From: Anseongella ginsenosidimutans
GTDB taxonomy: Bacteria > Bacteroidota > Bacteroidia > Sphingobacteriales > Sphingobacteriaceae
Assembly: GCA_029268045.1 (NCBI GenBank)
Contig: JAJUHF010000003.1
Coordinates: forward strand, 1 to 64,000
Reading direction: 5' to 3'
DNA length: 64,000 bases
The position numbers and the translations under genes were made by a program. Positions 3,216 through 57,951 of this stretch are shown one piece after another. The notes below the pieces were generated by a model that searched no databases, was not told the origin of the DNA, and saw only the letters and a list, made by a program, of their open reading frames with translations. The stretch's first letter is position 1; each line of letters starts with the position of its first letter.

Positions 3216-3881
3216 CTAACTGCCCGAAACGATCTTTCCGTCCTGCATAACCAGTTGCCGGTCTGCCATGGCAGCCAGCTCCACGTTGTGAGTCACGATC
3301 ACAAAAGTCTGGTCCAATTCGTCCCGCAGGTCGAAAAAAAGTTGATGCAGTTCACTGGAGTTTTTGGAATCGAGGTTACCGGAAGGCTCGTCCGTCAGCA
3401 CCAGGGCCGGATTATTCATCAGCGCGCGGGCAACGGCCACCCGTTGCTGCTCCCCGCCCGATAGCTCACCCGGTTTGTGATGCGCCCTGCCCCCCAGGCC
3501 CAGCATATCCAGCAGGCGTTTGCCTTCCTTCTCGGCTTCCGGAACCCTTTTTCCTGCGATGAAGGCCGGCATGCAGACATTCTCCAATGCCGTGAACTCC
3601 GGCAGCAGGTGATGGAACTGGAAGACAAAGCCGATATGGCGGTTGCGGAATGTACTGAGTTTCTTTTCCCCTAGCCGGCTCACGTCCATTCCGTTGATAC
3701 TCACCTGGCCCGCATCGGGCTTGTCCAGGGTGCCGATGATATGGAGCAAGGTGCTTTTCCCGGCTCCCGAGGCGCCCGTAATGGACACCACCTCTCCCTT
3801 CTTTACCTCCAGATCAATGCCTTTCAGGATGGCAAGGTCCCCGTAGGATTTGCGGATGGAATTGGCTTGGAGTAGAATCAT
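3216..3881 (-). CDS. lolD: ABC transporter ATP-binding protein, LolD-like
   Basis: [71 protein letters not shown]; internal ATG chosen over the longer ORF 3216..4334; ATGA overlap with the upstream SDR. Confidence 0.9.
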
Positions 3882-53674: not shown

Positions 53675-54745
53675 ATGAAGAAACGCGCTTTTTTGAAGTC
53701 CCTCGGAGGCGGGATCCTGTTGTCTCCCTTCCTGTCCGGCAGCACCGCCGCAGCACTATTTCCCGATCGGCCGCGGAATCCTTCCGGCCTTCAGCCGGAG
53801 ACGGTGCTTCCGCCCGGCCTGAAAAAAGGCGATACCATCGGGATAATCAGCCCTTCGGCCACATTATTTGAAGAAATGCCCTTCCAGCTTGCGCGCGAGG
53901 TCGTGCAGGCGCTGGGTTTTAAAGTGAAAATGGGCCAACACGTGGGCAACCGCTACGGTCATCTGGCAGGGACCGACCAGGAACGGGCGAAAGACCTGAA
54001 TGCCATGTTTGCCGATCCTACCGTCCGGGGTATCATTTGCCTGCGGGGCGGCTCCGGGGCTGCGCGTATCCTGGATCTCATCGACTACGATGTAATCAAA
54101 AATAACCCGAAGGTATTTATGGGGTACAGCGACATAACCGCCCTGCACATGGCCATTTATACACAAACCGGACTGATCACTTTTCACGGTCCCATGGCCA
54201 GCAGCACCTGGCCGGATTATAATGCATCGCAGTTCCGGACCCTGTTTCTTGAGCGAGCGCTGCCCGTATGGAAAAATCCCCAAAGCAAAGGAGATGACCT
54301 GATCGTCCGCTACAACCGGATCCGTACGATTTCCGGCGGCGAGTCGGCGGGCGAATTGCTGGGTGGCAACCTATCGGTCCTTTCCGGCCTGGCCGGATCG
54401 CGTTATTTCCCTGACTTTACGGGCAAGATCATGTTTCTGGAAGAAGTTGGAGAGAAATTGTACCGCGTGGACCGGATGATGAGCCAGTTGCAGCTGTGCG
54501 GCGCCCTGGAGCAGCTTGAAGGCTTTATTTTCGGCCACTGTACCGAATGCAATCCGGGTGAGGGTTACGGCGCACTTACGTTGGACGAAATCCTGGACCA
54601 TTATATAAAACCATTGGGTATTCCGGCGTATTCCGGCGCCATGATCGGCCACATTTCCCGGCAGTTCATCCTGCCGGTTGGGGGTCGGGTACGAATGGAC
54701 GCCGCCGAGGGCTCGTTTAGTCTCTTGCAGCCTGTTTTCAAGTAA
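53675..54745 (+). CDS. LD-carboxypeptidase (S66 family), exported
   Basis: KGDTIGIISPSATLFEE; IICLRGGSGAARILDLIDYDVI; FMGYSDITALHMAIY; GGNLSVLSGLAGSRYFP; Tat/Sec-like N-terminus. Confidence 0.93.
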   Translation: MKKRAFLKSLGGGILLSPFLSGSTAAALFPDRPRNPSGLQPETVLPPGLKKGDTIGIISPSATLFEEMPFQLAREVVQALGFKVKMGQHVGNRYGHLAGTDQERAKDLNAMFADPTVRGIICLRGGSGAARILDLIDYDVIKNNPKVFMGYSDITALHMAIYTQTGLITFHGPMASSTWPDYNASQFRTLFLERALPVWKNPQSKGDDLIVRYNRIRTISGGESAGELLGGNLSVLSGLAGSRYFPDFTGKIMFLEEVGEKLYRVDRMMSQLQLCGALEQLEGFIFGHCTECNPGEGYGALTLDEILDHYIKPLGIPAYSGAMIGHISRQFILPVGGRVRMDAAEGSFSLLQPVFK

Positions 54746-54793
54746 TTCTCCCTGAGGGGCCTGCGTGACGTGTCCAAAAAGTGAAGACGCCTC

Positions 54794-55189
54794 CTATTTC
54801 CGTCTGTTGGCTTCCAAAAGCGTGAGCAGTCGCTCGTTCACGGATACGACGCTCTCCATGAGCCTCAGCATGAACTCCTGTTGCGCTTGGTTGACAGTTT
54901 GCGCACTTCCCTGAACCGCAAACCGGGTTCGGGTCACCTGTTCCAGGAAATTATGGGGAGAAGCCGAAACAATCTGAAGCGGGTCTACCGTCAGAAACTC
55001 GGCGACCTTTTGAATAACGTCGACGGTGATTTTGCTTTCACCCCGTTCGTATTTGGTATAGGCAGCTTCTCCGATCCCGATGTAGTCGGCTACCTCAAAC
55101 GCTTTTTTTTCACGGAGTTTTCTGAATAAAGCCAGGTTGCGGCCAATGGTTTTGTTTTCGAAAACAGTGAATCGTTCCTGTTTTTCCAT
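54794..55189 (-). CDS. XRE-family HTH transcriptional regulator
   Basis: IGRNLALFRKLREKKAFEVADYIGIGEAAYTKYERGESKITVDVIQKVAEFL. Confidence 0.9.
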   Translation of the reverse strand: MEKQERFTVFENKTIGRNLALFRKLREKKAFEVADYIGIGEAAYTKYERGESKITVDVIQKVAEFLTVDPLQIVSASPHNFLEQVTRTRFAVQGSAQTVNQAQQEFMLRLMESVVSVNERLLTLLEANRRK

Positions 55190-55199
55190 ATCAGCGCCG

Positions 55200-55214
55200 G
55201 TTGTTCAAAACAAC
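55200..55214. promoter_or_regulatory. Candidate operator GTTGTT-CAA-AACAAC upstream of the xre gene
   Basis: Perfect 6-bp dyad, 11 nt from the xre start codon. Confidence 0.45.
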
Positions 55215-55284
55215 AATATTTATAGGTAAAACTACTAAGAATCCTGGGATTTTTGGAGAAAAAAAATCAACTTAGCATTGATTT

Positions 55285-55524
55285 AAGAAGATCTCTTCAT
55301 AATCAAACCTGTATGACAGTTCTCCGGCGGGCATCCGCCGGAGCAGCTGTCAGTTTTAAAAACGGGATTACGACGCAGGCCCACCCAATGTTCCAAGTTT
55401 CTACGTATTGGTTTTACTTCAACTTGTGCTGCTAAACAAGCACATGTTCTTTATGCCACTTATGTGGGGCACAGGCCAGCTTCAGGCAATGGCTTAATTA
55501 CCGGCACCTGACAGCTGGCTTTTT
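55285..55524 (+). ncRNA. Candidate orphan structured small RNA ending in an intrinsic terminator
   Basis: Promoter-like TTTG(55252-55255)-N17-TAGCATTG(55273-55280); hairpins 55314-55352, 55421-55448, 55456-55467; terminator 55475-55524. Confidence 0.5.
55475..55524 (+). terminator. Rho-independent terminator upstream of glnN
   Basis: GCCAGCTTCAGG...CCTGACAGCTGGC (12 bp with one bulge) followed by TTTTT. Confidence 0.75.
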
Positions 55525-55691
55525 CATAGTTTTTACTTGAATCCGGCGGCTTTAACGCCTAATTTTCACAAAAACCGCCACATAATTCGCAAGAACACAT
55601 TCGGACACCTGAATTATTGGAGAAAACAAGGGTTTTTCGGATCAAAACTTGAAAATATATGATTTTTTATCATTTTTTTTCAAAGATTCAC

Positions 55692-55720
55692 TTGATTTTT
55701 GATTTTTTCGCCTATTTTTG
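55692..55720 (+). promoter_or_regulatory. Candidate glnN promoter
   Basis: TTG(55692-55694)-N18-TATTTTTG(55713-55720), Bacteroidota -33/-7-like. Confidence 0.55.
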
Positions 55721-55758
55721 TCACGATTTATTACAAAAACAAAACAAATAGACGAAAT

Positions 55759-57951
55759 ATGTCCACTTTACGCTTCAAAGCTTTAGAAAGTGTTCTCAGT
55801 AGAACACCGATGCGGGCAATACCGCCTTCCGATCGGATCTCGGATTATTTTGGCACCAATGTGTTCAATGAGCACACGATGAAAGAATTTCTTTCCAAGG
55901 AAGCTTTCCAAAGTGTAAAAAATGCAATTGAGCGGGGAACGCCGGTTGATCGCGACATGGCAGATCAGATTGCCTCCGGCATGAAGGCCTGGGCCATGAG
56001 TAAAGGGGCAACCCACTACACCCACTGGTTTCAGCCCCTAACCGGGCTTACCGCTGAAAAGCACGATACATTTTTTGAGGCCTCACCCGATGGAACGGGC
56101 ATGGAAAAATTCACCGGAGAATCCCTGGTACAGCAGGAACCCGATGCATCCAGCTTTCCCAGCGGCGGTTTACGTGTCACGTTCGAAGCCCGGGGCTATA
56201 CCGCATGGGATCCCTCCTCCCCGGCTTTCATTATCGAGAGCCAGTCCGGAGGTAGCGCTACCCTGTGTATACCCACCGTATTCATTTCTTATACCGGCGA
56301 AGCGCTGGATTACAAAGCTCCCCTGCTGAAAGCATTGGGCCGGCTGGACAAAGCCGCGGTAGATGTCTGCCATTATTTTGACAAATCCATCACCAAGGTA
56401 AACGCAAGTCTGGGCATCGAGCAGGAATACTTCCTGGTGGATCTCTCCTTATACAACGCCAGGCCGGACCTGTACCTCACCAACCGGACGCTCTTTGGAC
56501 ACATGTCCGCCAAAAACCAGCAATTGGAAGACCACTATTTCGGCTCCATTCCGCGCCGCGTCCAGGCGTTCATGAGCGAACTGGAAACAGAAGCCCTGAA
56601 ACTGGGTATTCCCCTGACGACCCGGCACAACGAGGTAGCTCCCGGTCAATTCGAATGCGCTCCGCTTTACGAGGAGATCAACCTGGCAATCGACCACAAC
56701 CAGCTGCTCATGGATTTGATGGATAAAATTGCGCTTCGCCATCACTTCAAGGTGTTGCTCCATGAAAAACCTTTTGCCGGACTGAACGGATCAGGTAAGC
56801 ACAATAACTGGTCATTGATCACCAATACGGGCAAAAATCTCCTTTCCCCGGGGAAGACCCCCAAAAACAACCTGATGTTTTTGACCTTCTTTGTCAATAC
56901 CATCAAAGCGGTGCATACCCATGCGGATCTCATGCGAGCGGGTATCGCGTCGGCGGGTAACGACCACCGGCTGGGAGCAAACGAAGCGCCCCCTGCGATC
57001 ATTTCCATTTTTATAGGCTCACAGCTTACCGAAGCCCTGGAGGAAATCGAAAGCCGCCGGGTGGCTAAAAAGGACAAGCATACCGACACGATTAAACTGA
57101 ATATTCCAAAAATTCCGCAGATCCTGTTCGACAACACGGACCGGAACAGAACCTCTCCGTTCGCCTTCACCGGAAACAAATTTGAATTCCGGGCCGTGGG
57201 TTCGTATGCCAACTGCGCGGCTCCCATGACCATCCTGGCAGCGATCATGGCCGAGCAACTGGAAGCATTCAAGAAAGATGTGGACAGCCTGATCCGGAAA
57301 AAGGAGAAAAAGGACGTGGCCATCCTGAAAGTGATCCGCCAATACATTAAGGAATCCAAGAATATTCTCTTTGAAGGCAATAATTACAGTGAAGAATGGC
57401 ATAAAGAAGCCGAAAAGCGTGGTTTGCCCAATCTGGCCACAACGCCGGTGGCACTGGATGCTTACACGACACCCAAAGCGCATAAACTGTTTGTTGAACA
57501 GGATATTTTCACCGAAAGAGAGCTTCACGCACGGTATGAGATACTTCTGGAAGCCTTTATCAAGAAGATTCAGATCGAAGGCCGCGTATTGGGTGATCTT
57601 GCGCAAAACCATATTATCCCCACGGCGCTTACGTACCAGACCAGCCTGATCGATAACGTAAAAGGGCTGAAAGAGATCGGACTGGACAAAAAGAATTACC
57701 AAAGCCAGCTGGACATCATTGAGAAAATATCGGCGCATGTGAATCTGGTCAAACAGAACGTGGATGCCATGACCGAAGAACGCAAAAAAGCAAATAAGCT
57801 GACCGACGTACGCAAAATGGCCGCCGCATACGACCAAAAGGTAAAACCCTATTTCGAAGTCATCCGGTACAACATTGAAAAACTGGAGCGGATGGTGGAC
57901 GACTCGGTATGGCCCATGCCGAAATACAGGGAATTGCTGTTTCTACGCTGA
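55759..57951 (+). CDS. glnN: Glutamine synthetase type III
   Basis: FGTNVFNEHTMKEFLSKEAF; GIEQEYFLVD; TRHNEVAPGQFECAPLYEEINLAIDHNQLLMDLM; KPFAGLNGSGKHNNWSL; ATG 55759. Confidence 0.97.
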   Translation: MSTLRFKALESVLSRTPMRAIPPSDRISDYFGTNVFNEHTMKEFLSKEAFQSVKNAIERGTPVDRDMADQIASGMKAWAMSKGATHYTHWFQPLTGLTAEKHDTFFEASPDGTGMEKFTGESLVQQEPDASSFPSGGLRVTFEARGYTAWDPSSPAFIIESQSGGSATLCIPTVFISYTGEALDYKAPLLKALGRLDKAAVDVCHYFDKSITKVNASLGIEQEYFLVDLSLYNARPDLYLTNRTLFGHMSAKNQQLEDHYFGSIPRRVQAFMSELETEALKLGIPLTTRHNEVAPGQFECAPLYEEINLAIDHNQLLMDLMDKIALRHHFKVLLHEKPFAGLNGSGKHNNWSLITNTGKNLLSPGKTPKNNLMFLTFFVNTIKAVHTHADLMRAGIASAGNDHRLGANEAPPAIISIFIGSQLTEALEEIESRRVAKKDKHTDTIKLNIPKIPQILFDNTDRNRTSPFAFTGNKFEFRAVGSYANCAAPMTILAAIMAEQLEAFKKDVDSLIRKKEKKDVAILKVIRQYIKESKNILFEGNNYSEEWHKEAEKRGLPNLATTPVALDAYTTPKAHKLFVEQDIFTERELHARYEILLEAFIKKIQIEGRVLGDLAQNHIIPTALTYQTSLIDNVKGLKEIGLDKKNYQSQLDIIEKISAHVNLVKQNVDAMTEERKKANKLTDVRKMAAAYDQKVKPYFEVIRYNIEKLERMVDDSVWPMPKYRELLFLR

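Follow-up and report, generated by a model that had tools for sequence, protein, structure and literature searches.

A putative small RNA divergent from an XRE regulator gene in Anseongella ginsenosidimutans, and a covarying RNA family at homologous XRE loci of other Bacteroidota

The gap between a small XRE regulator gene and glnN in Anseongella ginsenosidimutans raises the question of whether it encodes an RNA and, if so, to which of the two genes that RNA belongs. The locus lies in a 64,000-nt stretch of DNA, referred to here as the window, for which a sequence-only reading had proposed a free-standing, terminated transcript of about 240 nt, either a small RNA or an attenuated leader, linked to nitrogen or glutamine metabolism. 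Upon checking of the sequence, all of the elements named (a promoter-like TTTG-N17-TAGCATTG, hairpins and a terminator with T5) were present at their coordinates, with the hairpins and terminator contained in 55262-55524. The upstream XRE gene was indeed found on the strand opposite to the RNA, both in the window and in G001, a single-contig chromosome that is the sole other genome of the genus in the collection. The features of the locus are as follows.

54794-55189, minus strand: XRE (HTH_3) regulator of 131 aa, divergent from the RNA (Pfam HTH_3, E 1.7e-9) and next to the RNA in G001 too
55205-55235, minus strand: probable XRE operator, direct repeat GTAGTTTTAC-N11-GTTGTTTTGA between the XRE start and the RNA
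55252-55280, plus strand: promoter-like TTTG-N17-TAGCATTG of the RNA (TTTG at 55252-55255, TAGCATTG at 55273-55280)
55280-55356, plus strand: 5' conserved module, a single-stranded stretch and hairpin 1 (73/75 aligned bases the same in G001)
55314-55352, plus strand: hairpin 1, 17 pairs with one bulge, TGACAG/CTGTCA enclosing CTCCGGCGG-GCAT-CCGCCGGAG
55421-55448, plus strand: middle hairpin, as read from the window, in a middle region that is not conserved in G001
55450-55519, plus strand: 3' conserved module with invariant ATGTGGGGCACA (77% of aligned bases the same in G001)
about 55455-55470, plus strand: hairpin, likewise read from the window
55474-55524, plus strand: intrinsic terminator, 3' hairpin (55474-55519) and T5, from the terminator scan (-24.3 kcal/mol)

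The 240-nt segment 55285-55524 folded at -87.2 kcal/mol compared to -62.3 +/- 4.2 kcal/mol for a background of 200 dinucleotide-preserving shuffles (z = -5.95), none of which folded as well. Terminator-like matches in the region were only mildly more frequent than chance, with 5 found in the scan vs 2.6 expected, and the hairpin at 55474-55519 is itself clear. The promoter-like box differs by 1 base from a TAnnTTTG box and constitutes weak evidence. Scanning of the window against Rfam 15 returned no family at gathering score and, at a relaxed threshold (E up to 10), chance-level matches only. The RNA is single copy, which excluded a dispersed repeat, MITE or REP-like element, and a small protein was excluded as its product since the overlapping 60-aa ORF is disrupted by indels in G001. 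The 3' arm of hairpin 1, CAGCTGTCAG (55345-55354), is a perfect 10-nt complement of CTGACAGCTG in the terminator hairpin (55507-55516); this alternative pairing could open the terminator and is not conserved in G001.

Conservation of the RNA was evaluated by DNA search (BLAST), which recovered it in G001 at E 5e-25 and gave no convincing copies beyond G001 among 60 relatives. The 5' module was also turned into a covariance model, R1, with the window sequence as its only input since the aligner had misplaced a loop gap. In a search of 395 genomes of the class with R1, the window genome alone scored strongly and one marginal match (E 0.029), in a 0.5-Mb genome, is probably due to chance. The first 77 nt of the RNA are 97% identical in G001 over the aligned bases, with a few small loop gaps, and the adjacent XRE coding sequence is 76% identical. 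The middle 90 nt, on the other hand, are barely alignable. Both outer hairpins refold in G001. Hairpin 1 does so at about -31 kcal/mol in both genomes alike, with the interspecies differences confined to loops, while substitutions in the 3' hairpin, compared by eye in the two folds, preserve pairing (C-G to U-G, U-A to U-G, and U-A exchanged for G-C with the bulge shifted). The homologous 3' hairpin of G001 lacks the T-tract, and some 60 nt past it there is another, separate terminator-like hairpin with a T6 (about 2757-2782 of locus L036). Given this hairpin in G001 and the terminator in the window, transcription of the RNA would seem to stop short of the next gene in both species. The pattern is that of a selected non-coding RNA, as read from two sequences only and hence below a formal covariation test. 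On this sequence evidence the fold, the terminator and the conservation in the congener sustain the proposed free-standing RNA of about 240 nt, but the promoter-like box ("-7 box") and the position of the T-tract were not kept.

Gene order was decisive for the partner of the RNA. In the window, the RNA terminator ends 235 nt upstream of the glnN ATG (55759) on the same strand, an arrangement compatible with a glnN leader or attenuator that would respond to nitrogen or glutamine and end transcription ahead of the coding sequence. In G001, however, four ORFs stand between the RNA and glnN (S66 peptidase, reverse XRE, RNA, the four ORFs, glnN): one of 141 aa, one of 223 aa, one for a histidine kinase and one resembling a response regulator. 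As the order of XRE gene and RNA is kept and glnN is displaced, the RNA belongs with the XRE gene and not with glnN. The leader is thereby largely refuted and, with no glutamine-type Rfam RNA matched either at gathering score or with E relaxed to 10, we consider it very improbable. The search for homologues in synteny with glnN that the sequence-only reading had suggested hence produced a copy with both outer hairpins in G001 but without the synteny, and the link to glutamine metabolism, tempting but wrong, is removed.

The direct repeat between the XRE start and the RNA, alternatively given as GTAGTTTTAC-N11-GTTGTTTT, has no second copy in the window genome, and a comparable repeat, likewise with a 21-bp period, can be made out upstream of many XRE homologues. 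It is therefore probably the XRE operator; G001 keeps its first half only. The promoter-like box sits just past this putative operator, making XRE control of the RNA plausible. The RNA would be transcribed from this promoter, with a predicted 5' start near GATTTAAGAAG and its 3' end at the terminator, and the XRE protein, given the adjoining operator, would probably control it together with its own gene. The near-invariant single-stranded 5' stretch CTTCATAATCAAACC may then contact a target RNA or protein, and the stable end hairpins may protect the RNA. A simple target search for antisense targets of CTTCATAATCAAACC gave nothing clearly above control. Strong folds upstream of the XRE family in general were at most weakly enriched, z < -4 being reached in 16/54 vs 9/50 control gaps.

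Fifty-two homologues of the window XRE were fetched from other Bacteroidota, many of which are divergent from TlpA-like, SusC and SusD genes. The divergent gap held strongly folded sequence at XRE loci of Sphingobacterium, Olivibacter, Pedobacter, Mucilaginibacter and Dyadobacter, and a model of six of these sequences, R2, had matches in 102/301 genomes of the window's family. A refined covariance model of about 173 nt and 63 pairs, R3, was obtained from 35 aligned matches (alignment A10). Changes on both sides were seen for 54 of the 63 pairs, 91.1% of cells were paired vs 39-46% with the partners slid by 1-3 columns, and the covariation score was 0.52 vs 0.07-0.11 when slid; the alignment was fitted to the model, which favours these pairing statistics, and the margin is large. 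Copies outside the building set (L103, L108-L110, L117, L122 and L126) scored 79-134 bits. Across the class, R3 matched in 92/395 genomes and 57/197 genera with up to seven copies per genome, in covariance searches whose E-values rest on a short calibration. R3 copies scanned against Rfam 15 had no match at gathering score, and the literature searches made found nothing on an XRE-paired structured RNA or a SusC leader RNA. R3 is a large covarying RNA family without an Rfam entry and, as far as checked, unreported. Example copies are the following.

L075 5591-5764, minus strand: R3 copy
L077 5592-5761, minus strand: R3 copy
L100 1501-1677, minus strand: R3 copy
L127 3730-3897, plus strand: R3 copy

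A TAnnTTTG box precedes the start of the R3 model by 34-50 nt in 33/44 loci. By manual count, a recognisable XRE gene is divergent from R3, about 120-260 nt away, in about 29/44 loci and a plausible small regulator gene in up to 34/44, these counts being drawn from simple ORF calls and from ten representative regulators checked with Pfam (seven HTH_3-type, one weak TetR_N, two without a match). The associated regulators belong to several subfamilies. In the window's family R3 is usually situated between a divergent XRE gene and TlpA/SusC/SusD genes, and outside this family the XRE partner is often absent. The first ORF often begins 15-60 nt past R3 and is followed by TlpA/SusC genes. The 3' element of R3 (e.g. 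CCATGCCTGTAG) could pair with the apical hairpin through its loop and 3' arm (GCTACAGGTATGG), a complementarity that changes in step between copies and exceeded that of all 200 shuffles in 19/35 sequences. On paper, the 3' element can thus invade its own apical hairpin, and this alternative pairing might serve as a terminator in the many copies from other families where a T run comes after the 3' element. R3 accordingly looks like a switch architecture with strand exchange, of translational or terminator type. Confirmation would make R3 a candidate for a new class of RNA switch that controls outer-membrane uptake systems, and it is the more interesting result compared to the RNA in the window.

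Several further observations were made at these loci. An ORF of ~50-55 aa with the conserved C-terminus (F/Y)DRLxxLKPKNP(I/V) is found between XRE and TlpA/SusC genes, in L101 and L116 (16-20 nt after R3) and in the Algoriphagus loci L049, L067, L068 and L069. In L100, L102, L104, L105 and L107-L114, the gene nearest to R3, beginning 25-31 nt past it and ahead of a TlpA-like gene, encodes a conserved protein of ~90 aa (MDxLKP...FGTLTGIMERFAQIPYEQFQQELHDWF...). In L155, R3 (3615-3776) is followed 30 nt on, on the same strand, by a DUF805 RNA (RF03081, 65 bits, 3807-3873) directly before a gene. Two XRE homologues in one genome, a Filimonas MAG (L081, L085), are preceded by inverted repeats of very high strength (z about -8.5 and -10.6; in L085, AGTGGTCCACTTT...AAAGTGGACCACT).

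R3 and the window RNA are both strongly folded and of similar size, and R3 in the window's family is usually divergent from an XRE gene, including homologues of the window XRE. It is this back-to-back arrangement only that the window RNA shares with R3, in both species. R3 differs in its fold and in having a TlpA/SusC operon where the window RNA has its own terminator. No TlpA/SusC/SusD operon follows the window RNA, the next gene past the terminator being glnN and, in G001, four other ORFs. With filters off, R3 scored 4.1 bits inside the RNA and at most 7.0 bits anywhere in 54700-56000, and in G001 3.9 bits at best over the homologous RNA and at most 7.9 bits in the gap. These are chance-level scores compared to 34 bits in Dyadobacter and 26 bits in Mucilaginibacter for distant true members, and the window RNA was excluded as an R3 member. 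No R3 match was found in the window genome (92% complete), and G001 carries one R3 at another locus, where it has an XRE gene and a TlpA-SusC operon of its own.

These results bear on the origin of the RNA. It might be a decayed or replaced leader, in which case an XRE gene originally divergent from R3 and a TlpA/SusC/SusD operon would have lost this operon, and the RNA would have changed beyond recognition. XRE homologues in Sphingobacterium, Olivibacter, Mucilaginibacter and Dyadobacter do have R3 in the same divergent position, and the fold strength of the window RNA is comparable. The R3 model is nevertheless blind to the RNA in both species, and the near-identity of the 5' module in G001 argues for present selection and not decay, which renders such an origin improbable. 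Alternatively, an XRE regulator and a structured RNA placed back to back may be a general module of the class, realised as R3 in many lineages, while in the window's genus a free-standing RNA unrelated to R3 would have taken its place as the partner of the same XRE protein; this we consider conceivable and rather unlikely.

The nature of the conserved block may be questioned as well. Its location in a divergent regulatory gap, and a perfect inverted repeat (55314-55352) that would form as DNA too, would suit an operator, binding or recombination site in which RNA folding is incidental. The conservation, however, spans about 70 nt including a 30-nt unpaired part, a second hairpin is found at a distance of 150 nt, both species have a terminator downstream and the block is single copy, so that a function as DNA is given a low probability. 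The RNA could also be the 6S RNA of the lineage, overlooked by existing models, as its length is roughly right and no 6S or 6S-Flavo above cut-off was found in the window genome or six relatives, leaving this slot open. Its limitation to one genus, a fold without a long closing stem and central bubble, and a variable middle that is not expected of 6S make this extremely improbable.

The explanation favoured, and regarded as reasonably likely, is a free-standing sRNA of ~240 nt that is restricted to the genus and transcribed divergently from the small XRE regulator. It is founded on the strength of the fold, the conservation of two modules, the lack of coding potential, the linkage to XRE and not to glnN, and a terminator-like hairpin ahead of the next gene in both species. 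That the locus holds a genuine RNA gene and that this gene goes with XRE can be stated with good confidence. As to mechanism, the likeliest, put forward tentatively, is regulation in trans by an XRE-controlled sRNA. A conserved, genus-level putative sRNA is in this way added together with its likely transcriptional partner.

Among known RNAs, the glutamine-type glnA and Downstream-peptide RNAs (Weinberg 2010, PMC2864571) are, like the window RNA, structured and near a glutamine synthetase gene; the window RNA differs in that it matches no Rfam family and that its place beside glnN is not conserved. The 6S (RF00013) and 6S-Flavo (RF01685) RNAs are stable, free-standing and roughly 200 nt in length, as is proposed for the window RNA, which differs from both in its genus-restricted distribution and its shape; neither model matched in the window or the window genome, and 6S identity was rejected. 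Transcriptomics of Flavobacterium psychrophilum has shown short, structured independent transcripts of narrow conservation to be common in the phylum (PMC9723704). Its sRNAs (Rfp1-89, e.g. Rfp18; PMC9723704) resemble the window RNA in these three properties and in being without an Rfam entry, a likeness of description and not of compared sequence, and whereas they were shown by transcriptomics the window RNA is known from sequence alone. Since such transcripts are common in the phylum, the window RNA, taken by itself, would represent a known kind of Bacteroidota sRNA.
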